From Comamonadaceae bacterium (GTDB taxonomy: Bacteria; Pseudomonadota; Gammaproteobacteria; Burkholderiales; Burkholderiaceae_C): DNA of 64,000 bases. Below are positions 1-14,519 of this stretch, in pieces. The notes beneath the pieces were generated by a model that was not told the origin of the DNA, did not search any database, and saw only the letters and a list, made by a program, of their open reading frames with translations. The stretch is from NCBI GenBank assembly GCA_027488255.1, contig JAIYBZ010000029.1:124001-188000 (forward strand), read 5' to 3'. The translations under genes and the position numbers were made by a program. How positions within the stretch are numbered: position 1 is the stretch's first letter; every line of letters starts with the position of its first letter.

Positions 1-37
1 AGCGAACAATACATTCTGAAAAGTACGGAGACACCTT

Positions 38-1177
38 GTGACTAAATCGAACGCTGTTCGTTACGGCATCATTGGCTGCGGCATGATGGGACAAGAACAC
101 TTGCGCAACATCGCCTTGTTGCCCGGTGCCAGCGTGACTTGCATTTTTGAACCCGACGACGGCATGGCCGCCAGCAGCTTGGCCTTGGCACCCGGTGCCC
201 GGCGGGTCGGCAGCTTGGCCGCGGTGGTGACCGCCGCCGATGTGGATTGCCTCTTGATCGCCAGCCCCAATTTCCGACACGCCGACCAGCTGCGTGAAAT
301 TGCCGCCCTGCGTCCGCTGCCGGTTTTGCTCGAAAAACCCGCCTGCACCCACTTGCAAGATGTGCGAGAACTCGCCGCCTTGGGCCAAGCCTACCCTGCA
401 CCCATTTGGGTCGCCATGGAGTACCGCTACATGCCGCCCGTGGCCCGCTTGAGCGAAGAGGTGCACCACGCGCAACACATCGGCCCGATGAAAATGTTGT
501 CCATTCGAGAACACCGCTTTCCGTTTTTGGTCAAGGTCGGCGATTGGAACCGTTTCAACCGCTACACCGGGGGCACCTTGGTCGAAAAATGCTGCCACTT
601 TTTTGACCTGATGCGCCACATGACCCGCAGTGAACCGGTCCGGGTGTTTGCCTCGGCCTCGGCCGACCACAACCACTTGGACGAGCGCTATCCCGATGGC
701 ACCCCCGATATTTTGGACAACGCCTATGTGATCGTCGACTTTGCCAGCGGACAACGGGCCATGCTGGAGTTGTGCATGTTTGCCGAAGGCGCTCGCTACC
801 AAGAAGAAATTTCGGTGGTGGGCCCACGCGGCAAAGCCGAATGCTTCGTGCCCGGCCCCGGTCGTTTCTGGCCTGCCCACTTGGGTGCAGCGCCGGTGCC
901 CAAAGTGGTCATCAGCCCGCGCGAGCCGAAGGGGCCCTGGGAGTTGGATGTGCCGGTGGAACCGGTGGCGTTGGCCGCTGGCGACCACAACGGCTCCACG
1001 CTGTACCAGCACCAACGCTTCAACGCGGTGGTGCGCGGAGAAGGCCAAGTTGAAGTCAGTCTGAACGACGGCTTGGCGGCGGTGATGATGGGCTTGGCAG
1101 CCCAAGAATCGGCGCGCACCGGGCAAGCCATCAGTTTGCGGGAAGGCGACTACGCGCTCACCCCTCTCCGCGCCTGA
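38..1177 (+). CDS. Gfo/Idh/MocA family NAD(P)-binding protein (possible GH188-type NAD-dependent sulfoquinovosidase)
   Basis: 379 aa, GTG start with ACGGAG about 7 bases upstream. The N-terminal Rossmann fold shows GIIGCGMMG (residues 10-18) and the family EKP motif (99-101). The C-terminal half carries GGTLVEKCCHFFDL (about 178-191), where the family places its catalytic Lys/His residues. Family members are sugar dehydrogenases or NAD-dependent glycosidases. The recently described GH188 NAD-dependent sulfoquinovosidases (SqgA) were originally annotated as Gfo/Idh/MocA proteins. Because this gene flanks a putative sulfoquinovose importer and monooxygenase set, a GH188-like role is attractive, but that is an inference from context. 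Only 5 bases of possible upstream operon are visible beyond its ribosome site, so earlier genes may belong with it. Family assignment is firm, substrate is not. Confidence 0.88.
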   Translation: MTKSNAVRYGIIGCGMMGQEHLRNIALLPGASVTCIFEPDDGMAASSLALAPGARRVGSLAAVVTAADVDCLLIASPNFRHADQLREIAALRPLPVLLEKPACTHLQDVRELAALGQAYPAPIWVAMEYRYMPPVARLSEEVHHAQHIGPMKMLSIREHRFPFLVKVGDWNRFNRYTGGTLVEKCCHFFDLMRHMTRSEPVRVFASASADHNHLDERYPDGTPDILDNAYVIVDFASGQRAMLELCMFAEGARYQEEISVVGPRGKAECFVPGPGRFWPAHLGAAPVPKVVISPREPKGPWELDVPVEPVALAAGDHNGSTLYQHQRFNAVVRGEGQVEVSLNDGLAAVMMGLAAQESARTGQAISLREGDYALTPLRA

Positions 1178-1188
1178 CCCCCATGACC

Positions 1189-2127
1189 TTACAGCACTTG
1201 TCTCAAAAACTCTGCGGCGCGTTGCCAGTCCAACGCCGTCATGGCATGCCCGCCGCTGCGGCTTTGCCATCGCAAACGCTCGGGCATGGCTTGCCAAGCG
1301 GGTTGCAAGTGCTCAAACATGGCCCGCGTGCCTTGGGGATTGGCCCACAGGTCGTCCTCGGCCTGCAAAAGACACAAGCCGCGCAGAGCCAAAGCACGCA
1401 AGCTTTCAGCAGGCCAATCGGTTTGCGCCAAGTGGGCTTGGTGTCGGGCCTCTTGCGCTTGGGGCGACAACCAATGCGGAAAGCGCAAGGCCAATTCGGC
1501 CAAACTTTCGGCGCCAGGTGGCGCGGGATGCAAACGACTCACACCGCCCGTTCCCGAATTGTGCGACACCAAGGCTTGAATTCGGGCGTCGCCAACAGCT
1601 GCGGCCATGGCCGCTTTGCCACCACGGGAGTGGCCGATCACCGCGATCTTGGGCGACGGCAACACCTTCTCCAAAGCCGAGACGCTGTAGCGAATGCCCC
1701 AAGCCCAAACGGCGATTGCCGACCACGGCACTTCGGGCCAATGGCGATGCACCGGACCGCCACGCAAGGCATCAGGCCCGTCCCAGGCCAAGCCCACGCG
1801 ATCAAACCAACTGAGCGCCACACCATTCCCCAACACACTGTCTATGGCGGCATCGTTGATAACTTGGGGCCAACAACCATCTGGGCTCAACAGGGTGATA
1901 CCTGTCGATGGCTGCAGGGGCTCGGCTCGGTACAACAACCAAGAAACCCAGGCGGGATGCCCCACGCTCACCTGCCAGACCTGCACACGGTGGTTGGCAC
2001 CTTGCCACTGGTGGGCCAACACCACATCACAGGGGTCGTCATGGGGGGGCTGAGGGCCAAACAAGGCCTCCATGCCCTCGCCGTGGGGCACCGAAGGCCT
2101 CGAAAAATGGGTCGAATCATTCATCAT
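1189..2127 (-). CDS. CE15-like (glucuronoyl esterase-like) alpha/beta hydrolase
   Basis: 312 aa, no obvious signal peptide, shorter than typical secreted CE15 enzymes. A nucleophile elbow GHSRGGKAA (Ser about 167) is followed by SHNSGTGG and FPHW, and the C-terminus has GGHAMTALDW (His about 294). These match the GxSRxGK, SNxSGxGG, FPHWF and GGHxxTPxDW pattern of bacterial CE15 proteins. The upstream WAWGIRY stretch also fits. CE15 enzymes cleave uronic-acid esters. In this cluster the enzyme might instead remove an acyl or ester group from an imported sugar, which is speculation. It is divergent from the ABC importer operon, and its stop codon is only 11 bases from that of the convergent Gfo/Idh gene. 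A 319-aa plus-strand ORF over the same bases is an antisense shadow. No secretion signal suggests cytoplasmic action. Confidence 0.72.
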   Translation of the reverse strand: MMNDSTHFSRPSVPHGEGMEALFGPQPPHDDPCDVVLAHQWQGANHRVQVWQVSVGHPAWVSWLLYRAEPLQPSTGITLLSPDGCWPQVINDAAIDSVLGNGVALSWFDRVGLAWDGPDALRGGPVHRHWPEVPWSAIAVWAWGIRYSVSALEKVLPSPKIAVIGHSRGGKAAMAAAVGDARIQALVSHNSGTGGVSRLHPAPPGAESLAELALRFPHWLSPQAQEARHQAHLAQTDWPAESLRALALRGLCLLQAEDDLWANPQGTRAMFEHLQPAWQAMPERLRWQSRSGGHAMTALDWQRAAEFLRQVL

Positions 2128-2200
2128 TCGTACAAACGATAGTTGTTTTTTTCAGAGCTTGCTCTACATTTTGTTTCATCACCACAACCGGAGACTTTTT

Positions 2201-3472
2201 ATGAAATCCATTCACATCAAATCCCTCGCTTTGGCTTTGGGCATTTCAGCCTTGGCCCCCTTGGTCATGGCCGGCGAAGTGCGTGTCATGTGCTACCAAG
2301 ACGGCGTGGAGTGCGACGTCACGGCAGAACTGGCCAAGCGTTTCGAAGCTGCCAATCCAGGCACCAAAATCATCATCGACACCGTACCCTACAAAACGGT
2401 GGTTGAGCAATTGCCCGTGCAATTGGCTGCTGGTCAAGGCCCTGACATCGCCCGTGTGACCGACTTGGGCGGTTTGTCCAAGTTTTACTTGGACATCTCC
2501 AAAGACCTGAAAAACCGAAAATATTTTGACGACAACTTTGGCGCCACGGCCCCTTGGTTGCGTCCAGCGGCCAACGACAAAGGCGTCTACGGCTTCATGT
2601 CTCAGCTGACCATGACCGGCCCCTTTGTTAACAAAACTTTGTTTGAACAAGCCAAAGTGCCGATGCCAGGGGCCAAAGCCACTTGGGACCAATGGGTGGC
2701 CGCTTCGCGCCAAGTGGCCAAAGCCACTCAAACCAAAGCCGCCATTGCGTGGGACCGTTCGGGACACCGTTTTGCAGGCCCCGCCATCAGTTATGGTGCG
2801 AAAATTTTTGATGCCAAAGGAGAGCCCATCATCGATGCAGGCTACAAAACTGCGGTCAACAAGTTTGTTGATTGGCACAAAGATGGCACCATGATGCGCG
2901 AAGTTTGGGCAGGCTCGGGCGGCTCGACCTATGCCTCTTCCATCGACGAATTCATCAACGGCAACGTGGTGATGGTGTTGGCAGGCAGCTGGCAAATCGG
3001 CAACTTGCAAAAGAAGGTCGGCACCAATTTTGACTGGGTGGCCGTGCCTAACCCATGCGGCCCAGCCGCTTGCTCGGGCATTCCTGGCGGCGCCGCTTGG
3101 GTGGCCTTGAAGACCAGCAAGTCGCCCAAAGAAACCGCCGCCTTCTTGGAATTCATGGCTTCTGAATCGGCTTACGCCGAGTTCACCGCGCGCACCAACA
3201 ACATTCCTGCGCATGCTGGTTTGGCTAAAAAAGGCGTCAACTACACCAGCGCTGACCCCGCGTCCAAAGCCGCTTTGGGCATCTTCAGTGCAGGCGTGAG
3301 CACACTGGCACCCACGGCCTACCAGTTCCAAGGGTTCAAGTTCAACCGCGCCATCATGTTGCCCACGGTCACTCGCGTGACGCAGGCCATTGTGGGTGAG
3401 ATGAACACCGACGAAGCCGTGAGCAAAATCAGCGCCGACATGAAAGACGCGATCCAGCAAGCCCAGAAGTGA
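2201..3472 (+). CDS. ABC transporter sugar-binding protein, family 1 (SmoF-like candidate)
   Basis: 423 aa from an ATG with a CGGAG site 7 bases upstream; the ORF track's longer start at 2072 has no support. A signal peptide covers about residues 1-24 (KSLALALGISALAPLVMA), so the mature protein is periplasmic. The fold is the SBP_bac_1 / UgpB-MalE type, with AAGQGPDIARV near residue 85 and GGAAWVALK further on, as in oligosaccharide- or glycerophosphate-binding proteins. It heads an operon with two permeases, an ATPase and a GH31 enzyme. In the sulfo-SMO pathway the corresponding SmoF binds sulfoquinovosyl glycerol. The same ligand is possible here but cannot be read from the sequence. A terminator-like hairpin follows directly, which would make this gene more strongly expressed than the membrane components. 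Confidence 0.85.
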   Translation: MKSIHIKSLALALGISALAPLVMAGEVRVMCYQDGVECDVTAELAKRFEAANPGTKIIIDTVPYKTVVEQLPVQLAAGQGPDIARVTDLGGLSKFYLDISKDLKNRKYFDDNFGATAPWLRPAANDKGVYGFMSQLTMTGPFVNKTLFEQAKVPMPGAKATWDQWVAASRQVAKATQTKAAIAWDRSGHRFAGPAISYGAKIFDAKGEPIIDAGYKTAVNKFVDWHKDGTMMREVWAGSGGSTYASSIDEFINGNVVMVLAGSWQIGNLQKKVGTNFDWVAVPNPCGPAACSGIPGGAAWVALKTSKSPKETAAFLEFMASESAYAEFTARTNNIPAHAGLAKKGVNYTSADPASKAALGIFSAGVSTLAPTAYQFQGFKFNRAIMLPTVTRVTQAIVGEMNTDEAVSKISADMKDAIQQAQK

Positions 3473-3511
3473 TGGCCGTCTAGGCTCAGCCCAGGCTTGG
3501 GCTGAACCCCA

Positions 3512-3541
3512 GGGGCATCCCACGGGATGCCCCCTTTTTTT
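3512..3541 (+). terminator. Rho-independent terminator / attenuator after the binding-protein gene
   Basis: GGGGCATCCC and GGGATGCCCC form an inverted repeat followed by seven T residues. A second hairpin (CAGCCCA / TGGGCTG) lies just upstream at about 3487-3504. Since the permease gene begins only 42 bases later and has no clear promoter of its own, this probably acts as partial termination within the operon. Confidence 0.8.
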
Positions 3542-3583
3542 CAAATCCCCTTGGGGCGCTCGCCGACACGACGAAAGTGGTCC

Positions 3584-4561
3584 ATGACCTTTCTTGCTTA
3601 TTTCTTCAACTTACTCGAGCCCGTGTTTCGGTTGGGCCAAAGGGTTCTGGGCATCCATCGCCTGGGCTGGCTGTTTGTCGCGCCCAACCTCGTCGTGTTT
3701 GGCTTGTTTTGTTTTCTGCCCATCGTCATCAACGTGGTCTACGCCACCACAGGCGGTGTCAACCTGATGCCTTGGACGCGCCCCTATACGGGCACTGAAA
3801 ATTTTCAAATTTTGTTTGAATGCGGCAACTACACCGATTTGTCCACCTGCCGCAAAGACATCTTCTGGCGGGCCATGGGCAACACCCTCAAGTTCAGCTT
3901 GATTCAAGTGGGCTTGATGGTTTTCTTTGCCCTCATCACCGCCTTGGTGCTCAACCGAAAAATCATCGGCCGAGGCTTCTGGCGTGGCGTCTTCTTTTAC
4001 CCCGTGTTGTTGTCCCCTGTCGTCGTCGCGCTGATCTGGAAATGGCTGCTGCAAAGCCAAGGCGCGTTCAACGCCGGACTGATCGCGATGGACAGCCCCC
4101 CCATTGAATGGCTCACCGATGCTGGATGGGCGTTTTTCTGGGCCGTGTTTGTTTCTATTTGGGCGCACATGGGCTTCTACACTTTGATTCTTTTGGCCGG
4201 TCTGCAAGCCATTCCCAAAGACCTCTATGAAGCCGCAGAAATGGACCGTGCCTCGCCCTGGCGCACGCTGACACGCATCACCCTGCCCTTGCTGCTGCCC
4301 AATTTGGTGGTGGTGCTGGTGTTGGCGGCGATCCGCGCGGTGCAGGTGTTCGACGAGGTCTTTGTGCTAACGGGTGGCGGCCCGGGTTCGGCCACCACAT
4401 TCATCGTGCAATTCATCTACCAAACCGGTTTTGCCGAGCAAATTCATTTGTACGGACTGGCCGCCGCAGCTTCCCTGGCACTGGCTCTTTTCTTGATTTT
4501 GCTGACGTTGGCGCAACTGCGTTTGACACGTGCGAACGAACTTGGACAAAAGGCACGTTGA
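3584..4561 (+). CDS. ABC transporter sugar permease, MalF/UgpA type
   Basis: 325 aa from the ATG at 3584; the ORF track's upstream extension overlaps the terminator and is unlikely. There are about six hydrophobic segments. The inner-membrane coupling (EAA) loop is visible as YEAAEMDRASPWRTLTRITLPLL near residues 215-237, which contacts the ATPase. Topology and length match the first permease of carbohydrate importers (UgpA/MalF class without the large MalF periplasmic domain). The stop codon is one base from the start of the second permease gene, so the two are probably translationally coupled. Ligand is inferred only from neighbours. Confidence 0.88.
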   Translation: MTFLAYFFNLLEPVFRLGQRVLGIHRLGWLFVAPNLVVFGLFCFLPIVINVVYATTGGVNLMPWTRPYTGTENFQILFECGNYTDLSTCRKDIFWRAMGNTLKFSLIQVGLMVFFALITALVLNRKIIGRGFWRGVFFYPVLLSPVVVALIWKWLLQSQGAFNAGLIAMDSPPIEWLTDAGWAFFWAVFVSIWAHMGFYTLILLAGLQAIPKDLYEAAEMDRASPWRTLTRITLPLLLPNLVVVLVLAAIRAVQVFDEVFVLTGGGPGSATTFIVQFIYQTGFAEQIHLYGLAAAASLALALFLILLTLAQLRLTRANELGQKAR

Positions 4562-4562
4562 C

Positions 4563-5612
4563 ATGACCTCGCTGAACTTTCTATTCAAAACCCGAGGGGT
4601 GCGCCGACTGCATTGGACCGACAGCGTCAGCTACCTGTACTTGGTCGTGGGCTTGTTCACGATGTTTGCGCCCGTGGTCTGGTTGGTCATGTCGTCGTTT
4701 AAAACCGAAGCCGCGATTGCCCAATTTCCGCCCAGCTTTTTGCCTTACAGCCAAAAATCAATTTCTGTCCCGGGACACGACAAGCCACTGCCCTTGTTCA
4801 AAGTCACGATGGAAGATGGCAGCCAGCGCGAGATGGTGCAAATCAACCGCATCGGCATCAAAGCCAATATGGTCGATCCGGCTGCGCCTGAAGAACGCAT
4901 CTCGGTCAACATCAACCAACGCCAGCCGGTGAACGAATTGAAGTGGGCGTGGAACAACTACACCGACCTCTTCGACAAATTCAGCTTTGGCACCTATTTG
5001 TGGAACAGCGTGTTCATCACGGTGGTGGCCACGGCCTTGACTTTGTTGTTCAACTCGATGGCGGCATTTGCCCTGTCCAAATACCGATTCAAAGGACAAA
5101 AGGCCGTCTTTCTGCTGATCATCGCCACCCTGATGATTCCGCCCACCATCATTTTGGTGCCGGTGTTTTTGGTCATCAACCAAGTCGGCTTGCTGAACAG
5201 CTTGTGGGGCGTGATCTTGCCTGCCGTGGCCACGCCCACCGGGGTGTTTTTATTGCGGCAATACATGCTGACCATTCCCGACGAATTGCTGGAGGCCGCT
5301 CGCATGGACCACGCCAGCGAATGGCGCATTTACTGGCGCATCGTGTTGCCTTTGTCGGCGCCCGCCTTGGCGGTATTGGCTATTTTCTCGGTCATGTGGC
5401 GCTGGAATGACTTTTTGCTGCCCTTGATCGTGCTGTCGCAAAACGAGTTTTTCACACTGCAATTGGCTTTGAATTCATTCCAAGGAGAGCTCAACACCCA
5501 ATGGCATTACTTGCTGGCCATGACCGTCATCACCTTGCTCCCGGTCACCTTGGTTTTTGCCTTTCTCCAACGCTACATCACCACAGGCATTGCCGGTGCC
5601 GGTGTCAAGTAA
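4563..5612 (+). CDS. ABC transporter sugar permease, MalG/UgpE type, with an enlarged first periplasmic loop
   Basis: 349 aa; the ATG at 4563 lies one base after the previous stop. The transmembrane core is MalG-like with the EAA loop LLEAARMDHASEWRIYWRIVLP near residues 240-261. Ordinary MalG-type permeases are about 275-290 aa. Here the extra length sits between the first membrane helix and the first conserved TMD segment, as roughly 70-80 polar residues (about 55-135, e.g. KVTMEDGSQREMVQINRIG). That stretch should be periplasmic and could contact the binding protein or ligand. Extended loops are also known in alpha-glucoside-type permeases. Forms the channel with the preceding permease. 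Confidence 0.86.
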   Translation: MTSLNFLFKTRGVRRLHWTDSVSYLYLVVGLFTMFAPVVWLVMSSFKTEAAIAQFPPSFLPYSQKSISVPGHDKPLPLFKVTMEDGSQREMVQINRIGIKANMVDPAAPEERISVNINQRQPVNELKWAWNNYTDLFDKFSFGTYLWNSVFITVVATALTLLFNSMAAFALSKYRFKGQKAVFLLIIATLMIPPTIILVPVFLVINQVGLLNSLWGVILPAVATPTGVFLLRQYMLTIPDELLEAARMDHASEWRIYWRIVLPLSAPALAVLAIFSVMWRWNDFLLPLIVLSQNEFFTLQLALNSFQGELNTQWHYLLAMTVITLLPVTLVFAFLQRYITTGIAGAGVK

Positions 5613-5636
5613 CCCCCTTTTCGATTGGACCCTCGC

Positions 5637-6677
5637 GTGTCGACTCTCTCTCTTCAATCCATACACAAGCAATTTGAGCAAACGCCCGTCATTCATGGCG
5701 TTGATCTCGAGGTTAAAAACGGCGAATTCGTGGTTTTTGTAGGCCCATCGGGCTGCGGCAAGTCCACCTTGTTGCGCATGATTGCGGGCCTGGACGAGCC
5801 CACCAGCGGACGCATCTTGATCGACGGCGAAGAGGTCAACGCCATCGGCGCAGCGGACCGGGGCTGCGCCATGGTGTTTCAGTCGTATGCACTCTATCCG
5901 CACATGACGGTCTACGCCAACATGGCCTTTGGCCTTGAAAACGCCAAAGTTCCAAAAGCCGAGATCGAACAAAAAGTCCAAGAAGCGGCCGCCCTGTTGC
6001 GCTTGGACACGCTGCTGCAACGCCGCCCAACCCAACTCTCGGGGGGGCAACGTCAGCGTGTTGCGATTGGCCGTGCCATTGTGCGAAACCCCAAAATCTT
6101 TTTGTTCGATGAACCCTTGTCTAACTTAGACGCCGAGCTCCGGGTTTCGATGCGCACCGAATTGCGCGAGTTGCACCAGCGCCTCGAGTCCACCATGATT
6201 TACGTCACCCACGACCAAGTGGAAGCCATGACCATGGCCGACAAAATTGTGGTGTTGCGCGCGGGCAAGGTCGAACAGGTGGGCAGCCCAGAGGCGCTGT
6301 ATCAACGCCCTTGCAACACCTTTGTGGCCGGTTTCATTGGCAGCCCGCGCATGAACTTTCTGCCTTTCGCGGCGCTGAGTGCAGCCAGTGGCCTCACCCA
6401 TGGCCTGCCCGACCAAACCGACCAAGTGGGCATTCGCCCTGAGCACTGGCAATTGTGCGAGGCAGGACAAGGCGTCGGCGTTGAAGTCACGGCCTCCGAG
6501 TACATGGGGTCACAGCGTTTGGTGCAAGCCCGTTTGGGGCAAGACCATCGCTTGGAAATTTTGCTCAGCGGTGAGCACCACATCCAGACCGGCCAAACCT
6601 TGCATGTGCGGGTCGATCGCCCGCACATCCATGCCTTCGACCAGCAGGGCCAGCGCATCGAAGGCTCGGCCGCATGA
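5637..6677 (+). CDS. ABC transporter ATP-binding protein, MalK/UgpC/MsmX type
   Basis: 346 aa if the GTG at 5637 is used, giving an N-terminus [13 protein letters not shown] that matches family starts; a TTG at 5625 is the alternative. Walker [10 protein letters not shown] is at residues 36-44, signature LSGGQRQRV near 134, Walker [13 protein letters not shown] near 155, and the H-loop THDQVEAM follows. A C-terminal TOBE-type regulatory domain of about 110 residues marks it as a carbohydrate-importer ATPase. It energises the two permeases encoded just upstream. The GH31 gene starts inside its stop codon (ATGA), coupling transport to glycoside hydrolysis. Confidence 0.9.
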
Positions 6678-8815
6678 AGCCCATTGAAGCCGTCTCATGG
6701 GTCATTCACCCCCAAGCCGAAGTCGCTGACGCACATGCTGACTTGACCGATGGCGGTCAGTTGCGGGTGGTGTTTTTGTCGCCAACCCTGGCCCGCATGA
6801 GCTGGGTCCCCCGCACAGGCTTTCGTGAGCCGCGCACCTGGTCGATTGCGCCAGAGGGCCACGGCGATGTGCCTTGGGAGGGCCGCGCCCGAGACAGCCT
6901 GGCGGGCTTTGAGCGCCCACCCCTCCAAGTCGACGGCGAGTACTTGGGCACCGAGCGCCTGCGGGTTCGGCTGACGGCGGGTCGTGGTGGCGCCGTTCGC
7001 GCCATCTGGTCCGATCCCAGCAGCCAATCGGTGCTGATGGAAGACCGCGTCACCAGCGCCTATTTGGATGAACGACGCACTGGCCTGGTACGGCACAGTG
7101 TGGTGCGGCACCCCGGCGAACATTACTTTGGGCTGGGCGACAAAACAGGCCCGCTGAACCTGCACGGCAGGCGCCTGCGGTGCTTGGGCCAAGACTCCAT
7201 CGGGTATGACCCCTTGAGCGGCGACCCCCTGTACAAGCACTGGCCCTTTTTGTTAACCCGCACCCTGCAAGGGTTGTGGATCGGCACTTACTACGACACC
7301 TTGTCGGCCTGCACTTTCGACTTAGGGTGTGAACACGACAACTACCATGGCCTTTTCCGCAGCGTGGACATCGATGACGGCGATTTAGATTGTTACGTCA
7401 TGGCCGGCCGCACGCCCGGCGAAGTAATTGCCCAATTTGTGCGTTTGGTCGGTGGCACCCATTTGCCCCCACGCTGGACCTTGGGCTATGCACAAACAGC
7501 GATGGGCCTGGCCGATGCCCCCGATGCCCAGCAACAACTCGACCGCTTCATCGACGAGTGCCAGCGGCAACGCATGCCCATTTCCTCATTCCATTACGGC
7601 TCGGGCTACTCCAGCCGCGGCAAACAGCGCTATGTGTTCACCTGGAACGCCAGCAAGTTTCCCGACCCGCAAGCGATCAATGCCAAATTTCACCGCGCAG
7701 GCATGCGCTTGGTGGCCAACCTCAAGCCGTGTTTGTTGGACGACCATCCCGCCTATGCCCAACTGCAAGAAGCACAAGCTTTTGTTGAGCACGAGCACTC
7801 GCAAACCCCGGTGGTGGAACCTTATTGGGATGGTCAAGGCTCACATTTGGATTTCACCAAACCCCAAGCCATCGCTTGGTGGCAAACCCAGTTGCGCGAA
7901 CAGATTCTTGAAAAAGGCATCGAGATCGGTTGGAACGACAACAACGAATACGCGATCGCGGCGGAAGACGCCATCAGTCACGGCTTTGGCCAAGCCCTGC
8001 CCATTCATCGCTCACGTCCCTTGCATGCCCTGCTGATGACGCGCGCCACCTTTGAGGCGCAAATGGCTTGGCAAGCGCAAGAAGGCCAGCAAGATCACGC
8101 GTTCACCGTGACGCGCGCGGGGCCACCGGGCATCCAGCGCTACGCCCAAACTTGGTCGGGCGACAACACCACCAGTTGGGCCACTTTGAAGTGGAACATT
8201 CGCACGGGCTTGCAAATGAGCTTGTCCGGCATGTTCAACATCGGCCACGATGTAGGCGGTTTTTATGGGCCCTTGCCCGAGCCCGAGTTGTTCTTGCGCT
8301 GGGTGCAGGCCTGCGCCTTGAACCCCCGCATGGTGATGAACTCTTGGAAAGCCGGCAACGTAAGCAATGTGCCCTGGATGCACCCCTCGGTGACCGATGG
8401 TGTGCGCTCGGCCATTGAATTGCGTTACCGACTCATGCCCTATCTTTGGTCGTGTTTTGAAGCCGCCAGCCGCGACGCGGTGCCCATCATTCGGCCCACG
8501 TTTTACAACTTCCCCGACGACGAACAGTGCTTGCAAGACAGTGACGAGTTCATGCTCGGCGACTCCTTGCTGGTGGCACCGGTGGTGCAAGCTGGCGCGC
8601 AAACCCGCACGCTGTACTTGCCAGCACTGCCTAAGGGCCTGGGCTGGATCGATTTTCACACTCGGCAGCGTTTTCAAGCCGGGCAAAGCCACACCGTTTC
8701 CGCTGATGGCCTGCCCTTGTTCGTGGTGCAAGGCGCGTCCCTTCCGCTGGCGGCACCCCGTCCGGGTGAGGTGGCCAGGTTTGACGATCCCGTGAGTGAG
8801 ACCGTGCAGTTTTAA
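6674..8815 (+). CDS. Glycoside hydrolase family 31 (alpha-glucosidase-like)
   Basis: 713 aa, ATGA overlap with the ATPase gene. GH31 hallmarks are clear: nucleophile region GWNDNNE (Asp about 422), acid/base region WSGDNTTSW (Asp about 497), and DVGGFYGP in the C-terminal part of the barrel. The first barrel strand region reads SFHYGSGYSS and RYVFTWNASKFPDP. Sulfoquinovosidases of the YihQ/SmoI type carry a QDW...GxRxxW arrangement and GGY (Gln288, Arg301, Trp304, Tyr508 in E. coli YihQ). Those residues are not present here, so I do not call it a sulfoquinovosidase despite the context. It lacks a signal peptide and should act on imported alpha-glycosides in the cytoplasm. Its 3-prime end converges on the exporter gene with a 14-base gap. 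Confidence 0.88.
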   Translation: MKPIEAVSWVIHPQAEVADAHADLTDGGQLRVVFLSPTLARMSWVPRTGFREPRTWSIAPEGHGDVPWEGRARDSLAGFERPPLQVDGEYLGTERLRVRLTAGRGGAVRAIWSDPSSQSVLMEDRVTSAYLDERRTGLVRHSVVRHPGEHYFGLGDKTGPLNLHGRRLRCLGQDSIGYDPLSGDPLYKHWPFLLTRTLQGLWIGTYYDTLSACTFDLGCEHDNYHGLFRSVDIDDGDLDCYVMAGRTPGEVIAQFVRLVGGTHLPPRWTLGYAQTAMGLADAPDAQQQLDRFIDECQRQRMPISSFHYGSGYSSRGKQRYVFTWNASKFPDPQAINAKFHRAGMRLVANLKPCLLDDHPAYAQLQEAQAFVEHEHSQTPVVEPYWDGQGSHLDFTKPQAIAWWQTQLREQILEKGIEIGWNDNNEYAIAAEDAISHGFGQALPIHRSRPLHALLMTRATFEAQMAWQAQEGQQDHAFTVTRAGPPGIQRYAQTWSGDNTTSWATLKWNIRTGLQMSLSGMFNIGHDVGGFYGPLPEPELFLRWVQACALNPRMVMNSWKAGNVSNVPWMHPSVTDGVRSAIELRYRLMPYLWSCFEAASRDAVPIIRPTFYNFPDDEQCLQDSDEFMLGDSLLVAPVVQAGAQTRTLYLPALPKGLGWIDFHTRQRFQAGQSHTVSADGLPLFVVQGASLPLAAPRPGEVARFDDPVSETVQF

Positions 8816-8829
8816 AGGTGCTTGGGCGG

Positions 8830-9609
8830 CTAAAAGAACAACATGTGGGCCGCGACCAAGGCCAAGAAACCGGCAAATGCCAATTGCAATCGGCGCTTGT
8901 CCATGCGCTGCGACAAGCGCGCACCGGCATTCGCAAACACCACACTGATGACGCTGATGCCCATGAACGCACTGAGGTGCACATAGCCCCAAGTGACGGC
9001 GGTGTCGTGGCCGGTCATGCCCAAGCCGACCGCGCCGATCAAAGAAATAGGAATCGCCACCGCCGAGCTCACCACCACGGCTTGTCGCATGTCGATGCCA
9101 CGCAACACCAAATATGGCACCGTCATGGCGCCACCGCTGACGCCCAGCAAAGTTGAGATGTGACCAATCACCAAGCCTGCCCCCATCAGCTCGGTCTTGG
9201 CAGGTGCAGCTTGGCTGACTTCATTGGCTTTTTTGCGCAGCAGTGTGATGCAAGTCACCAAGGCAAACACGCCAAACCCCAGCTTTAAGCCTGCCGTGGG
9301 GAGCACATTGGCCAAGCAAACCGCCAATACGGCGCCGGCACTGACGGCTGCGCTCAACCAGTACAACGGTTGAAATTGCATGCGTTTCGCACGCCAGTGT
9401 GTCCAACTGCTGCTGACCGATGTGACCACGATGCAGGCCAGCGATGTGGCCACGGCGTAATGCATGACCTGCGGCCCCAAGACAGGATCGAGCCGCCACA
9501 AAAAGTACAAGGTCGGCACGATCACCAAGCCGCCCCCCACGCCAAACAAGCCCGCTGTAAATCCCCCTGCGGCTCCCACCAGCAGGTACAACAGCCACAA
9601 GGGCATCAT
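8830..9609 (-). CDS. TauE/SafE family sulfite/anion exporter
   Basis: 259 aa from the ATG at 9609, which overlaps the stop of the flavin reductase gene (ATGA); the ORF track's start at 9648 lies inside that gene. The protein is mostly hydrophobic with about eight predicted helices. It starts with LLYLLVGAAGGFTAGLFGVGGGLVIVPTL, the glycine-rich repeat typical of TauE/SafE, and has a second copy LLGVSGGAMTVPYLVLRG in the second half. Family members export sulfite, sulfoacetate or related anions. As the last gene of a desulfonation operon, sulfite export is the natural reading. Confidence 0.87.
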   Translation of the reverse strand: MMPLWLLYLLVGAAGGFTAGLFGVGGGLVIVPTLYFLWRLDPVLGPQVMHYAVATSLACIVVTSVSSSWTHWRAKRMQFQPLYWLSAAVSAGAVLAVCLANVLPTAGLKLGFGVFALVTCITLLRKKANEVSQAAPAKTELMGAGLVIGHISTLLGVSGGAMTVPYLVLRGIDMRQAVVVSSAVAIPISLIGAVGLGMTGHDTAVTWGYVHLSAFMGISVISVVFANAGARLSQRMDKRRLQLAFAGFLALVAAHMLFF

Positions 9610-10196
9610 GAAGTGCTGGCCTGGAAATGGCCAAATTGGCTGCGGCAAAACGTCAGCGCCGCGGCATCGTGCCAGCCAAAGTCTTGCACTTGACCGATCA
9701 CTATGTGATGGTCTCCCGCGTCCACCAACTGGTGCAGCGTGCAGTCAAACCAAGCCATGGCCTCCGACAAGCGCAAGCGCTCACTGGCTTGCCGTTGCAC
9801 AGGCACTTGGGCGAAACGGGCCGACATGTCACCGGTGGCGAACTGTCGAGCCAAGCCCTGTTGGGCATGCGACAGCACGCTCACGCAGAAGCCCCCCGAC
9901 TGAATAAATGCCTCCAAACTGCTGGCTGCTTTGCGAATGCTCCACAACACCAGACGGGGCTCTAAAGACACCGAAGCAAACGAATTGCAGGTCATGCCCC
10001 AATCGCTTTCTTGCCAGCGCGTGGTGACCACCGTGACCCCCGTGGCGAAACAAGAGAGTGCTTTGCGGTACTCGGCAGGATCTTGTGCGGGAGGCACCGG
10101 CGCATGCGCAGACACAGGGGTCGGCGCGTTGGCGGGCAAAACATCGGGCATGAGACGCATGAAGGGGCTTTCGTTGGAGGTGGGCCGGGTGTTCAA
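9606..10196 (-). CDS. smoA: Flavin reductase domain protein (SmoA-like, supplies reduced FMN)
   Basis: 196 aa if the TTG at 10196 is used, which overlaps the stop of the aldo/keto reductase gene; an ATG at 10160 would give 184 aa, and no strong ribosome site separates them. The core from about residue 40 shows FATGVTVVTTR and GMTCNSFASVSLEPRLVLWS, typical of the HpaC/DIM6 flavin reductase fold. Two-component flavin monooxygenases need such a partner to deliver FMNH2. The neighbouring SsuD-like enzyme is the obvious client. The first 35 residues are Ala/Pro-rich and unlike the family core. The symbol follows the sulfo-SMO gene order and is an inference. Confidence 0.78.
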   Translation of the reverse strand: MNTRPTSNESPFMRLMPDVLPANAPTPVSAHAPVPPAQDPAEYRKALSCFATGVTVVTTRWQESDWGMTCNSFASVSLEPRLVLWSIRKAASSLEAFIQSGGFCVSVLSHAQQGLARQFATGDMSARFAQVPVQRQASERLRLSEAMAWFDCTLHQLVDAGDHHIVIGQVQDFGWHDAAALTFCRSQFGHFQASTS

Positions 10197-11104
10197 GGCA
10201 CTTCATGGCCGTTGGCCAATTCGTACAGTTCGTACCAAGTTTGGCGGTCCATGGGCACCTTGAAGGCTTGCGCAAATGCACCCATGCGATCGAGTTGGTT
10301 GCTGCCCATCACGGGCATCACGCCCACGGGGTGGTGCATCAACCAAGCCATGGCCACCGCCGTGGTGTCGGTGCCTGCGGCTTGGGCCAATGCGGCCAAT
10401 TTGGGGGCCAATCGCGCCGCCGCCGTACCCGCTTGCGCGGCTTGGCTGTGCAAGCGCCCGCCGCCCAAGGGCGACCACGCCATCACGGGCATGTGGTGTT
10501 GCTGGGCATGGGCAATCTGACCATTGATGAAAGGCGCCGTGTGCAACAGACTCAATTCGATTTGGTTGGTTTGCAAGCGGTGCTGCATGCGGGACTGCAA
10601 CAGGTCGGCATCCCAAGGCATGAAGTTAGACACCCCCACACCGCGCACCTTGCCACTGTCGATCAGTCCGTCCAAGCAAGCGCCCAGGGCCGAGGCATCG
10701 CACAGCGGATCTGGCCGGTGAATCAGCAGCAGATCAATCACCTCCACACCAATGCGTTGCAAAGAACGCTCGACACTCGCGGTGACGTGTGCGGGTGAGG
10801 TGTCGTAGTGCTTCACCCGCGTGCCCGGCCACTGCTGCGACAGCAACATGATGTCGGTTTTGGTGACGATCTCGATCTGTTGGCGCAGTGCCGGGCGGGC
10901 CTTGATGGCTTCGCCAAAAAGCGCCTCGCAACGGTAATCACCATAAATGTCGGCATGGTCAAAGGTGGTGATGCCTTGCGCCAGGCAAGCGTCAATGCGT
11001 GCCAAGTTGGCCGAGACGCTGGTGTTCTGGGCTTCAGACAAGCGCCAGACGCCATAGGCCATCTGACTGAGCGTGCGCCCATTGGGCAGAGTGATGCGGT
11101 TCAT
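10193..11104 (-). CDS. smoB: Aldo/keto reductase (SmoB-like, 6-oxo-glucose reductase candidate)
   Basis: 303 aa TIM-barrel NADPH-dependent reductase. The catalytic tetrad is visible as D and Y in FDHADIYGDY, K in IVTKTD and H in LLIHRPDP. GVSNFMPWD and NQIELSLLH are standard AKR signatures, and MAWSPLGGG precedes the cofactor-binding end. It resembles the YdhF group of AKRs. In the sulfo-SMO pathway SmoB reduces 6-oxo-glucose, the product of sulfoquinovose desulfonation, to glucose, and this enzyme sits between the monooxygenase and flavin reductase genes as expected for that role. The AKR family is certain; the substrate is inferred from synteny. Confidence 0.82.
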   Translation of the reverse strand: MNRITLPNGRTLSQMAYGVWRLSEAQNTSVSANLARIDACLAQGITTFDHADIYGDYRCEALFGEAIKARPALRQQIEIVTKTDIMLLSQQWPGTRVKHYDTSPAHVTASVERSLQRIGVEVIDLLLIHRPDPLCDASALGACLDGLIDSGKVRGVGVSNFMPWDADLLQSRMQHRLQTNQIELSLLHTAPFINGQIAHAQQHHMPVMAWSPLGGGRLHSQAAQAGTAAARLAPKLAALAQAAGTDTTAVAMAWLMHHPVGVMPVMGSNQLDRMGAFAQAFKVPMDRQTWYELYELANGHEVP

Positions 11105-11129
11105 AAACAGGTCAATTCAAAAAGAAATT

Positions 11130-12284
11130 TCAGCGACGCACGCCCACACCCAGTGGGGTCGCAGGTGTAGCTGCAGGGACGCGGCCGTACTCGTGGGCCA
11201 AGGACACGGTTTTGAGATGCGGCAACACTTTGGTGCCAAAAATCTCGCACTCTTGCAGGTGTGGATAGCCCGAGAAAATGAAGGCACGAATGCCCATTTT
11301 CATGTAGTCATGGATGGTGCTCAGCACTTGGTCGACACTGCCCACCAGCGCGGCACCGCAGCCGCTGCGTGCGCGGCCCACACCCGTCCACAGGTGGGGC
11401 TCGATGTAGCCCTCATCGTCTGCAATCTCGCGGTTGGCGCTTTGCAAAGACACGCCCATACTCTTGGCGTCCAGCGCGCGTTGGCGAATTTCTCGGCCCT
11501 TGTCGTCATCGAGTTTCGAGACCAATTCGCGGGCATATTCGCGCGCTTCGGCTTCGGTGTCGCGCACGATCATGTGCACCCGCAAACCATAGTCCAGCGT
11601 GCGGCCGTATTTTTCAGCCTGTGCATGCACGTCGCGCATGCGCTGCGCCAACATGTCTTGCGGTTCAGGCCACATCAGATAGGTGTCGCAGTGTGCGCCG
11701 CACAAAGCCAAGGCATCAGGGCTGTAGCCACCGAAATACAACAAGGGGCCGCCGGTTTGATAAGGGCGCACAGGGTCGGTCGACAAGCCTTTGATGTTGT
11801 AGATCTGCCCTTCGTAGTTGATCTCGTCTTGGGTCCAGGCTTGCTTCAGGATCTCGACCACCTCCCAGCTGCGGCGGTAACGGTAAGCGCTGTCTTCTTG
11901 TTGCCCCGGAAAATCTGACGAGATGACATTGAGTGTCAAACGCCCTTGCATCATGTGGTCCAGCGTGGCCACGGTACGCGCCAACATGGCGGGCTGCACT
12001 TCGCCGCAACGGATCGCGGCCAACATGTTCATGCGCTTGATCTGGGGCGCCATGCCCGCCACAAAAGTCAGTGTGTCTTGTCCCACTTGGTAGGACGACG
12101 GACACAAGATATTGCGAAAACCCAACTCGTCTGCGCGTTGCGCAATGCGGCTGGTGTTGGCCCAACTGCTGCGAAATTGACCTTCGGGCACGCCCAGGTG
12201 CTGAAAATCATCGGAGCACAAGGGCGCAAACCAAGCCACTTCGGCACCCGCGATATCTTCACCTCTGACCGGAACAATGCTCAT
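11130..12284 (-). CDS. smoC: LLM-class FMNH2-dependent sulfonate monooxygenase (SmoC-like, sulfoquinovose monooxygenase candidate)
   Basis: 384 aa from the ATG at 12284 (MSIVPVRGED); the ORF track's 26-residue extension runs into an AT-rich promoter-like region. The protein is a bacterial-luciferase-like TIM barrel of the SsuD group: AEVAWFAPLC at the N-terminus, MLAAIRCGEVQPAMLARTVATLDH, LNVISSDFPG, LLYFGGYSPDA, GRARSGCGAALVGS and IFSGYPHLQEC. SsuD-type enzymes use FMNH2 and oxygen to cleave C-S bonds, giving an aldehyde and sulfite. A flavin reductase, an aldehyde-reducing AKR and a TauE/SafE exporter in the same operon fit that chemistry. SmoC acting on sulfoquinovose is the best match; another C6 sulfonate remains possible. 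Divergent from a GntR regulator. Confidence 0.82.
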   Translation of the reverse strand: MSIVPVRGEDIAGAEVAWFAPLCSDDFQHLGVPEGQFRSSWANTSRIAQRADELGFRNILCPSSYQVGQDTLTFVAGMAPQIKRMNMLAAIRCGEVQPAMLARTVATLDHMMQGRLTLNVISSDFPGQQEDSAYRYRRSWEVVEILKQAWTQDEINYEGQIYNIKGLSTDPVRPYQTGGPLLYFGGYSPDALALCGAHCDTYLMWPEPQDMLAQRMRDVHAQAEKYGRTLDYGLRVHMIVRDTEAEAREYARELVSKLDDDKGREIRQRALDAKSMGVSLQSANREIADDEGYIEPHLWTGVGRARSGCGAALVGSVDQVLSTIHDYMKMGIRAFIFSGYPHLQECEIFGTKVLPHLKTVSLAHEYGRVPAATPATPLGVGVRR

Positions 12285-12406
12285 GGCACACCTTTTAAAA
12301 AACGAAGCGATTGGCGAGAAAAATAATGTAGGAATAGTATATGAATTAAGTCTTCTCGGCATCAGGGTTTGCCCGAGTCGCCAGATCCTTTGCCATACTG
12401 AGCGCC

Positions 12407-13123
12407 ATGTCCGTCACCACCCCTGCCAAACCGCTGCCGGTTTACTTGCAAATCTCTGAGCTGCTGGCCCGCCAAATCAAAGCGGGCTATTGGCACAAGG
12501 GCGAACGGCTGCCCACCGAGGCCGAGCTGGCCCAGACCCTCGACGTGGCGGTGGGCACCGTGCGCAAAGCCTTGGCATTGTTGTCAGACCAAGGCGTGCT
12601 GGAGCGCAAGCAAGGGTCGGGCACTTACGTCAAACAAGTGGCCGGAACGCAACGCATTTATGAGTTGTTCCGGCTGGAGCTCAACACCGGGCCTGGTCTG
12701 CCGACCGCCCTGATTTTGGATGTCAGCAAACTGCGTCGGCCGGATCATGTGCCACCGCTGGGAGCGGGAACGCCCATGGCGTGGCGCGTGCGCCGTTTGC
12801 GTTTTTTGAGTCAGGTGCCCGTTGCGCTGGAAGAAATTTGGTTCGATGCCAGTTATTGCAAACAACTCCGCGCCGACGAGTTGGGCGACTCGATGTATTT
12901 GTTCTACCAAGAGCGTTTCAGCGTGTGGATCGCGCGCGTTGAAGACCGTTTGAGTGTGGCCCCAACCCCCGATTGGACAGCCCCGCCCTGCGGATTGGTG
13001 GCCCACCAAAGTGCGGGCTTCATTGAGCGTTTGTCTTGGACCGCCAACAACACCTTGGCCGAGTATTCGCACACCTGGTTTGACCCCCAACTCTGCCGCT
13101 ACTCTTCGAGGCTCAGCCAATGA
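12407..13123 (+). CDS. GntR-family transcriptional regulator, HutC type
   Basis: 238 aa. The winged helix-turn-helix occupies about residues 10-75 (PVYLQISELLARQI, LPTEAELAQTLDVAVGTVRKAL, GSGTYV). A UTRA effector domain follows (about 90-235), with WRVRRLRFLSQVPVALEEIWFD as the usual ligand-pocket strand. UTRA domains bind small metabolites, often sugars or their phosphates. The 122-base gap to the divergent monooxygenase gene is AT-rich, and the regulator probably binds there to control the desulfonation operon, likely as a repressor. That regulatory target is an inference from position. Confidence 0.85.
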   Translation: MSVTTPAKPLPVYLQISELLARQIKAGYWHKGERLPTEAELAQTLDVAVGTVRKALALLSDQGVLERKQGSGTYVKQVAGTQRIYELFRLELNTGPGLPTALILDVSKLRRPDHVPPLGAGTPMAWRVRRLRFLSQVPVALEEIWFDASYCKQLRADELGDSMYLFYQERFSVWIARVEDRLSVAPTPDWTAPPCGLVAHQSAGFIERLSWTANNTLAEYSHTWFDPQLCRYSSRLSQ

Positions 13124-13150
13124 AAAAGGCCCCTTTCGGGGCCTTTTTTG
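13123..13150. terminator. Bidirectional rho-independent terminator
   Basis: AAAAAGGCCCC and GGGGCCTTTTTT are near-perfect inverted repeats around a short loop, with T runs in both directions. It separates the convergent GntR and CoA-transferase subunit B genes. Confidence 0.88.
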
Positions 13151-13168
13151 GGTCTGAGGGCAAGCCCT

Positions 13169-13810
13169 TCAAAAAATCAGTTTGACGCCGGTCTTGCTTT
13201 GCAGCAATTCGGGGGTCACCCCCGGCGCCAACTCGATGACTTTCAAGCCCGCGTCGGTCACGTCCATCACGGCCAAGTCGGTGATGATGCGGTCAACCAC
13301 GCCCACCCCGGTCAAGGGCAGCGTGCATTTCGGCAAGATCTTCAGGTCTTCGGTGCCGTCTTTCTTTTTGGCCACATGCTCCATCAAGATGATCACGCGC
13401 TTGACGCCCGCCACCAAGTCCATCGCGCCACCCATGCCTTTGACCATCTTGCCGGGAATCATCCAGTTGGCCAGATCGCCTTTTTCGCTCACTTGCATGG
13501 CGCCCAAAATCGACAAATTGATCTTGCCGCCACGGATCATGGCAAACGACTGCTCGCTGCCAAAAATGGACGAGCCCTTGATGGTGGTCACCGTTTGTTT
13601 GCCGGCGTTGATCAGGTCAGCGTCCACCTCGTCTTCGGTGGGAAAAGGGCCGATGCCCAGCATGCCGTTTTCGCTTTGCAGCCACACCTCTTTGTCGGCC
13701 GGCACAAAGTTGGCCACCAGCGTGGGAATGCCGATGCCCAGGTTGACGTAGAAACCATCTTCCAATTCGTGGGCCGCACGGGCGGCCATTTGGTCTTGAC
13801 TCCAGCTCAT
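13169..13810 (-). CDS. 3-oxoacid CoA-transferase subunit B
   Basis: 213 aa, the usual size for the beta subunit. The catalytic glutamate motif is [12 protein letters not shown] near residues 50-61, preceded by [13 protein letters not shown]. Family members transfer CoA from succinyl-CoA or acetyl-CoA to 3-oxoacids such as acetoacetate. Start follows the subunit A stop by one base, so the two subunits should be made in equal amounts. Whether the substrate is acetoacetate or 3-oxoadipate cannot be read from the sequence. Shares a bidirectional terminator with the GntR gene downstream. Confidence 0.92.
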
Positions 13811-13811
13811 A

Positions 13812-14519
13812 TCAGACTCCTGCTTTCTCGGTGATGGTGCGTTTTTCGATGCGCTTTTCAGGGTGCCGGTTCAGCACAATGCGGTGCACATAAATGCCGG
13901 GCAAATGCACGCTGTCGGGATGCATGTCGCCGGTTTCCACAATCTCTTCGACCTCGACCACACACAACTTACCGGCCATGGCCACGGCAGGGTTGAAGTT
14001 GCGCGAGGTGTAGCGGAACTGCAAGTTGCCTGATTTATCGGCGCGGTGCGCTTTGACCAGTGACACATCGGGCACCAATGAGCGCTCCATCACATAGGTC
14101 TCGCCATCAAACTCGCGCAACTCTTTGCCCTCGGCCACCAAGGTACCGACCCCGGTTTTGGTGAAAAACGCGGGAATGCCGGCACCGCCTGCGCGCAATT
14201 TTTCGGCCAAGGTGCCTTGCGGCGTGAACTCCAGGGCCAATTCGCCCGCCAAATATTGGCGTTCAAACTCTTTGTTCTCACCCACGTAAGACGAAATCAT
14301 TTTTTTGATCTGGCGGGTCTGCAGCAATTTGCCCAGACCGAAATCGTCCACGCCCGCGTTGTTTGAAATCGCCGTCAGGTTTTGCACGCCGCTGTCACGC
14401 AGGGCATCAATCAAGGCTTCGGGAATGCCGCACAGGCCAAAACCGCCGACACCAATCAACTGTCCGTCAGCCACGATGCCCTTCAAGGCTTCGGCTGCAG
14501 AGGGAAAAATCTTGTTCAC
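13812..14519 (-). CDS. 3-oxoacid CoA-transferase subunit A
   Basis: 235 aa alpha subunit. The N-terminus has the CoA-binding loop [16 protein letters not shown] (about residues 21-36), and the middle shows [17 protein letters not shown], both standard for the family. It is the first gene of the two-gene unit. Its promoter region contains the ACTACGTA repeats shared with a divergent PAS-LuxR regulator, which suggests that regulator controls CoA-transferase expression. Confidence 0.92.

Follow-up and report, generated by a model that had tools for sequence, protein, structure and literature searches.

A candidate GH188 sulfoquinovosidase gene overlapping glpD in a Comamonadaceae sulfo-SMO island

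The founding members of family GH188 are ArSqgA and FlSqgA (PDB 8qc2, 8qc3, 8qc5, 8qc6 and 8qc8; PMC10755693). The family is characterised by bound NAD+ as a catalytic cofactor, by independence of metals and by activity on both alpha- and beta-sulfoquinovosides, the glycosides of a sulfo-sugar found in plants and algae. In the structure of ArSqgA with NAD+ and sulfoquinovose (SQ), contacts are made by H321, Y136, H193, K107 and E189, and the sulfonate is held by a triad of R166, K172 and the main-chain amide of L170 (Kaur et al. 2023, PMC10755693). The same study describes gene clusters with GH188 as having no GH31 sulfoquinovosidase (PMC10755693). A GH188 variant with Tyr at position 170 was described by Backlund & Higgins 2024 (PMC11465081). 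The GH31 sulfoquinovosidases YihQ and SmoI (5aed, 5ohs/5ohy, 7ofx) act on alpha-linked SQ glycosides, the reaction predicted for the protein studied here, but their fold and chemistry are unrelated to it. A further GH188 structure, PDB 8zn9, bears in the Foldseek output the entry title 'A vast marine sulfonate-based carbon cycle fueled by novel sulfoquinovosidases', and its accompanying paper is presumably Ma et al. 2025, to which PMC13372026 refers.

The window, that is, the whole stretch of 64,000 nucleotides that was analysed, belongs to a Comamonadaceae genome of 2.6 Mb that is 97% complete. The nearest relatives of this genome with respect to sqgA are Limnohabitans and other Comamonadaceae. 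At the left end of the window lie the following features:

27-45, forward strand: GGAG (27-30), the sqgA GTG start (38-40) and the glpD TAA stop (43-45), an 8-bp overlap
38-1177, forward strand: sqgA, predicted GH188 NAD-dependent sulfoquinovosidase (PDB matches, tree, AF2 model with Foldseek)

Family membership, fold and active site

The open reading frame at 38-1177 encodes 379 residues from a GTG codon, with a ribosome-binding-like GGAG seven bases 5' of this start. The preliminary description had placed a Gfo/Idh/MocA protein in the island and proposed that it is GH188-like, and both statements are borne out. The Pfam domains GFO_IDH_MocA (62.9 bits) and GFO_IDH_MocA_C (76.5 bits) score above their cut-offs, the sequence shows the nucleotide-binding motif GIIGCGMMG, and Pfam, AF2 and Foldseek all give a two-domain fold, with an N-terminal Rossmann domain and a C-terminal alpha/beta domain. 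In a phmmer search of the PDB, the protein matches 8zn9 at 510 bits (65% identity over 362 residues), ArSqgA (8qc3) at 372 bits (49%) and FlSqgA (8qc2) at 365 bits (48%), while the next Gfo/Idh/MocA structure after the GH188 entries reaches only 61 bits, six-fold below ArSqgA and FlSqgA. The AF2 model (pLDDT 91) finds GH188 structures in all of its top 12 Foldseek matches and superposes on 8zn9, ArSqgA and FlSqgA with a TMq of 0.87-0.94 and an rmsd of 1.1-1.5; among the matches listed, the fold relatives outside GH188 have an rmsd of at least 3.2. Six PF01408 proteins are encoded in the genome, and SqgA is only distantly like the other five.

The tree comprises 61 proteins (IQ-TREE, LG+C20). 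Window SqgA falls within a betaproteobacterial clade of 14 rows (support 100/99), which is itself part of an SMO-linked GH188 clade that also holds 8zn9 (100/97). ArSqgA and FlSqgA adjoin this clade (94/71), and the Tyr group follows next outward. The GH188 rows are split (99/98) from six other Gfo/Idh/MocA proteins, namely the five paralogues of the genome and an inositol dehydrogenase. A position outside the GH188 clade, named in the preliminary description as the outcome that would speak against the assignment, is thus not what the tree gives, as SqgA is nested inside GH188. The outgroup branches are very long and the exact root is not meaningful; despite this, GH188 membership is, on sequence grounds, not in doubt. 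The window protein and 8zn9 have in common the fold (TM 0.93), all active-site residues and the SMO-linked clade. In contrast, the companions of 8zn9 in the tree are alphaproteobacterial and for the most part marine, whereas window SqgA is a Comamonadaceae protein whose gene overlaps glpD and has a GH31 gene nearby. ArSqgA-type proteins, which share the nine residues considered below, branch outside the SMO-linked clade.

Alignment with the characterised SqgA proteins, as the preliminary description had proposed, finds each of the nine ArSqgA residues that serve substrate contact or catalysis unchanged in window SqgA. They lie at these codons:

335-337, forward strand: K100, equivalent to ArSqgA K107, C3-OH contact (alignment to ArSqgA)
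422-424, forward strand: Y129, equivalent to ArSqgA Y136, C2-OH contact, implicated in catalysis (alignment)
509-535, forward strand: sulfonate-binding loop EHRFPFLVK, E158 to K166, with R160, L164 and K166 equivalent to ArSqgA R166, L170 and K172
584-598, forward strand: EKCCH, E183 to H187, with E183 equivalent to ArSqgA E189 (C4-OH) and H187 to H193 (C3-OH) (alignment)
986-988, forward strand: H317, equivalent to ArSqgA H321, C1-OH contact (alignment)

E158 of window SqgA aligns with E164 of ArSqgA. The residue printed as Glu163 in PMC10755693 appears to be Glu164 when counted in line with R166, L170 and K172 as numbered there. Eight of the nine positions are invariant in 100 of 100 related loci; the exception, position 170, has Leu in 88 of them and Tyr in the other 12.

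The 12 Tyr-170 loci (L100, L102, L105, L107, L109-L116) form a separate Comamonadaceae group and correspond to the published variant (PMC11465081). They share family and residues with window SqgA except at position 170, where window SqgA has Leu. This group, at 41-47% identity, occurs in 18 of 251 Comamonadaceae genomes, with residue 170 examined in the 12 loci. In these loci the Tyr-type gene stands mostly beside a different ABC importer, in some cases with glpD or glpK, and no smoC was found near it, in contrast to the SMO-linked window gene.

Taken together, these results assign the protein, with a probability of about 0.94 for the joint reading, as SqgA, a predicted GH188 sulfoquinovosidase that would likely act on sulfoquinovosyl glycerol. 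It is a further member of an existing family, here in freshwater-type Comamonadaceae.

The sulfo-SMO island and its link to glycerol genes

Downstream of sqgA, the window contains the following genes:

1189-2127, reverse strand: alpha/beta hydrolase, convergent with sqgA and weakly matched to glucuronoyl esterases (CE15-like)
2195-6677, forward strand: ABC sugar importer, with binding protein (2195-3472), permeases (3527-4561 and 4530-5612) and ATPase (5625-6677)
6674-8815, forward strand: GH31 glycosidase, not of the YihQ type, with the D422/D497 pair kept
8830-9648, reverse strand: TauE/SafE-family exporter, probably of sulfite and SmoE-like in role (PF01925, 160.6 bits)
9606-10196, reverse strand: smoA-like flavin reductase (PF01613)
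10193-11104, reverse strand: smoB-like aldo/keto reductase, forming glucose from 6-dehydroglucose (328 bits to 7bby, 212 to the next member of the family)
11130-12362, reverse strand: smoC, FMNH2-dependent sulfoquinovose monooxygenase (7oh2/7olf 622/621 bits, next 207)
12407-13123, forward strand: GntR/UTRA regulator, divergent from smoCBA (domain match)

The structures 7oh2 and 7olf are those of SmoC, and 7bby is that of SmoB. An SQ monooxygenase, a flavin reductase and a 6-dehydroglucose reductase are thus encoded in the window, and sqgA lies in a sulfolytic cluster, with smoC, smoB and the flavin reductase about 8-11 kb away. Compared with the described sulfo-SMO pathway, smoC, smoB, the flavin reductase, the TauE exporter, the GntR regulator and the ABC importer are all present in the window. 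The island differs in that cleavage is predicted to fall to a GH188 enzyme and not to a YihQ-type GH31, and in its additional glpK-glpR-glpD genes and non-YihQ GH31. In most relatives, the GntR gene is located between smoC and sqgA.

The link between sqgA and smoC extends beyond this locus. In 73 of 80 relatives, sqgA has a smoC gene (at least 60% identical) as a neighbour; the other loci are mostly truncated by the end of a contig. Among the 251 Comamonadaceae genomes, smoC is found in 9 and L170-type sqgA in 8, and all eight of the latter carry smoC, against 0.29 expected (P = 3e-14, a value that overstates independence, as the genomes are related). The ninth smoC genome, the one without L170-type sqgA, is 70% complete.

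For the binding protein at 2195-3472, the PDB yields nothing more specific than generic sugar-binding proteins, the best at 48 bits, and by sequence the importer's protein does not look close to any solved SQ-glycerol binding protein; the identity of this protein was therefore set aside as a guide to the importer's substrate. The importer is presumed to be a route for sulfoquinovosyl glycerol, for the GH31 substrate or for both. In five relatives (L027, L028, L030, L035 and L036), it is linked to sqgA/smoC without GH31. The hydrolase at 1189-2127 is found again in several relatives, placed between sqgA and the transporter genes, and is fast-evolving, at 31-49% identity to their copies; it could act on acylated SQ glycerol.

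On its other side, sqgA is joined to glycerol genes by the 8-bp overlap between its start and the stop codon of glpD. In L003, which covers the 15 kb before the window, positions 9946-14045 hold glpK on the reverse strand, a DeoR-type regulator on the reverse strand and glpD on the forward strand, immediately upstream of window position 1. The arrangement recurs in L004 (with a 4-bp overlap), L007, L008 and L012, where glpD again immediately precedes sqgA in the same orientation, and the order regulator, glpD, sqgA is common to these four loci and the host locus. Cleavage of sulfoquinovosyl glycerol yields glycerol besides SQ, so the glpD-sqgA layout fits sulfoquinovosyl glycerol as the substrate and suggests that the nutrient is this compound and not just free SQ. 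Since the sqgA start overlaps the only glpD of the host genome, both products would have an adjacent outlet; by the same token, the position of this sole copy could reflect chance in the arrangement of the operon.

The GH31 neighbour and competing readings

The preliminary description had stated that the GH31 enzyme at 6674-8815 lacks YihQ-type sulfonate-binding residues, and the alignment agrees. The YihQ/SmoI sulfonate-site set is taken to be Q/K262, Q/E288, R301, W304 and Y508 (E. coli numbering), a motif that reportedly goes back to Speciale 2016 and Abayakoon 2018; its letters were checked on the YihQ and SmoI sequences. At Q262, Q288, R301, W304 and Y508 the GH31 protein has A, a gap, Q, Y and F, with the R301 column uncertain, an invariant Arg (R319) lying one position away. 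The nucleophile D422, within a WNDNNEY motif, and the acid/base D497 are kept, and an HYGSGY stretch is also present. The PRK10426 model scores 127 bits against a cut-off of 553, which is not exceeded even in the E. coli control genome, so more weight falls on the search with the YihQ sequence. Elsewhere in the 97% complete genome, neither this model nor E. coli YihQ itself finds a YihQ-type enzyme, and a hidden sulfoquinovosidase of that type was thereby ruled out. Score and fold search place the protein nearest to a dextranase, YicI-type enzymes and alpha-glucosidases, with about 20% of residues identical; the structure model is weak around the active-site loops, and the fold search is not decisive for the substrate. 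The protein apparently represents an uncharacterised clade.

The cassette of binding protein, two permeases, ATPase and GH31 recurs with both GH188 types, the Tyr type being represented by L109. It also stands beside glpK/glpR/glpD in L085 and beside glpR/glpK in L104, where the other flanks hold unrelated genes and no smo or sqgA genes were found in the sequence around the cassette. In L087 (5690-12273), from another Comamonadaceae genome, the translations place GH31 beside a TRAP-type-looking transporter and a TauE-like membrane protein, with no ABC importer. L007 and L009 stand for Limnohabitans isolates with the island, and in the sequence around the L009 locus no GH31 is seen. Among the 251 Comamonadaceae genomes, GH31 occurs in 8 of the 9 with smoC (0.72 expected), in some on a contig other than that of sqgA, and 12 of the 20 GH31 genomes carry a GH188 of either type.

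The occurrences in L085 and L104, together with the alpha-glucosidase-like fold and the pairing with either GH188 type, are consistent with GH31 and the importer being a cassette of their own that handles a different glyceryl alpha-glycoside, for example cyanobacterial glucosylglycerol. Such a cassette would have entered the SQ island owing to a common flow of glycerol to GlpK/GlpD, and this reading is compatible with SqgA as the sulfoquinovosidase. Related alphaproteobacterial importers beside smo genes without GH31 suggest, in contrast, that the importer carries an SQ compound, and the separate cassette is a tentative reading, somewhat doubtful though well worth holding. It is ranked above the improbable reading in which GH31 is the island's working sulfoquinovosidase, of a new type, and SqgA is secondary, serving for example beta-linked or other SQ glycosides. 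The latter draws on the co-occurrence with smoC and GH188, the intact catalytic Asp pair and the invariant Arg beside the R301 position, but YihQ W304, Y508, Q262 and Q288 are not kept, the nearest enzymes are the alpha-glucosidases and dextranase, most alphaproteobacterial smo/sqgA loci are without GH31, and the cassette beside glp genes exists without smo or sqgA. Least likely of all is that the 38-1177 protein belongs with the common Gfo/Idh/MocA dehydrogenases, oxidises a sugar or polyol (for instance SQ, inositol or the glucose that is formed) and leaves cleavage of the glycoside to another enzyme: the inositol dehydrogenase model IolG matches at 100.8 bits and the fold is common to both, but the equivalog cut-off of 355 bits is not reached, the tree places SqgA outside the dehydrogenases tested and the full GH188 active site with its sulfonate triad is present, and this identity was rejected on these three counts.

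With SqgA retained as the predicted sulfoquinovosidase, the window cluster does hold a GH31 gene, though one without YihQ-type residues; the lack of a GH31 sulfoquinovosidase in GH188 clusters is a reported trait and not a strictly defining one. Set against that reported lack, the presence of a GH31 here makes any division of labour between GH31 and SqgA provisional. The window GH31 contradicts Kaur et al. (PMC10755693) only if it is active on SQ glycosides.

Proposed route and biological meaning

In the proposed route, sulfoquinovosyl glycerol, the likely substrate, would be imported by the ABC importer. Following the mechanism in PMC10755693, SqgA would hold NAD+ as a catalytic cofactor and oxidise C3 of the sulfoquinovoside by hydride transfer, after which the aglycone would leave by elimination across C1-C2. 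Water would then be added and the hydride returned, giving free SQ with no net redox change. Glycerol would pass to GlpK and GlpD, encoded immediately upstream of sqgA. SmoC and SmoA would convert SQ to sulfite and 6-dehydroglucose, the latter would be reduced to glucose by SmoB, and sulfite would exit through the TauE-type exporter.

The unusual points of the locus are the sqgA/glpD overlap and the recurring uncharacterised GH31. A broader picture, to which we give a little less than even odds, has two glycosidases for thylakoid-derived or cyanobacterial glyceryl glycosides, SqgA and the GH31 enzyme. In this picture the latter would be either a glyceryl-glucoside hydrolase or a sulfoquinovosidase of a third kind, and both enzymes would supply glycerol to a single neighbouring glp gene group. 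If GH31 acts on SQ glycosides, its repeated presence in islands with GH188 may call for a refinement of the published view that the two families take each other's place. Window SqgA supplies the predicted glycoside-cleaving step for Comamonadaceae sulfo-SMO islands, including those of Limnohabitans-type freshwater genomes. A 2026 stable-isotope study lists Comamonadaceae among the assimilators of 13C-labelled SQ, and the accessible part of that report does not name their pathway (PMC13372026). For this assimilation, as far as it is described in that part, the island offers a testable candidate pathway.
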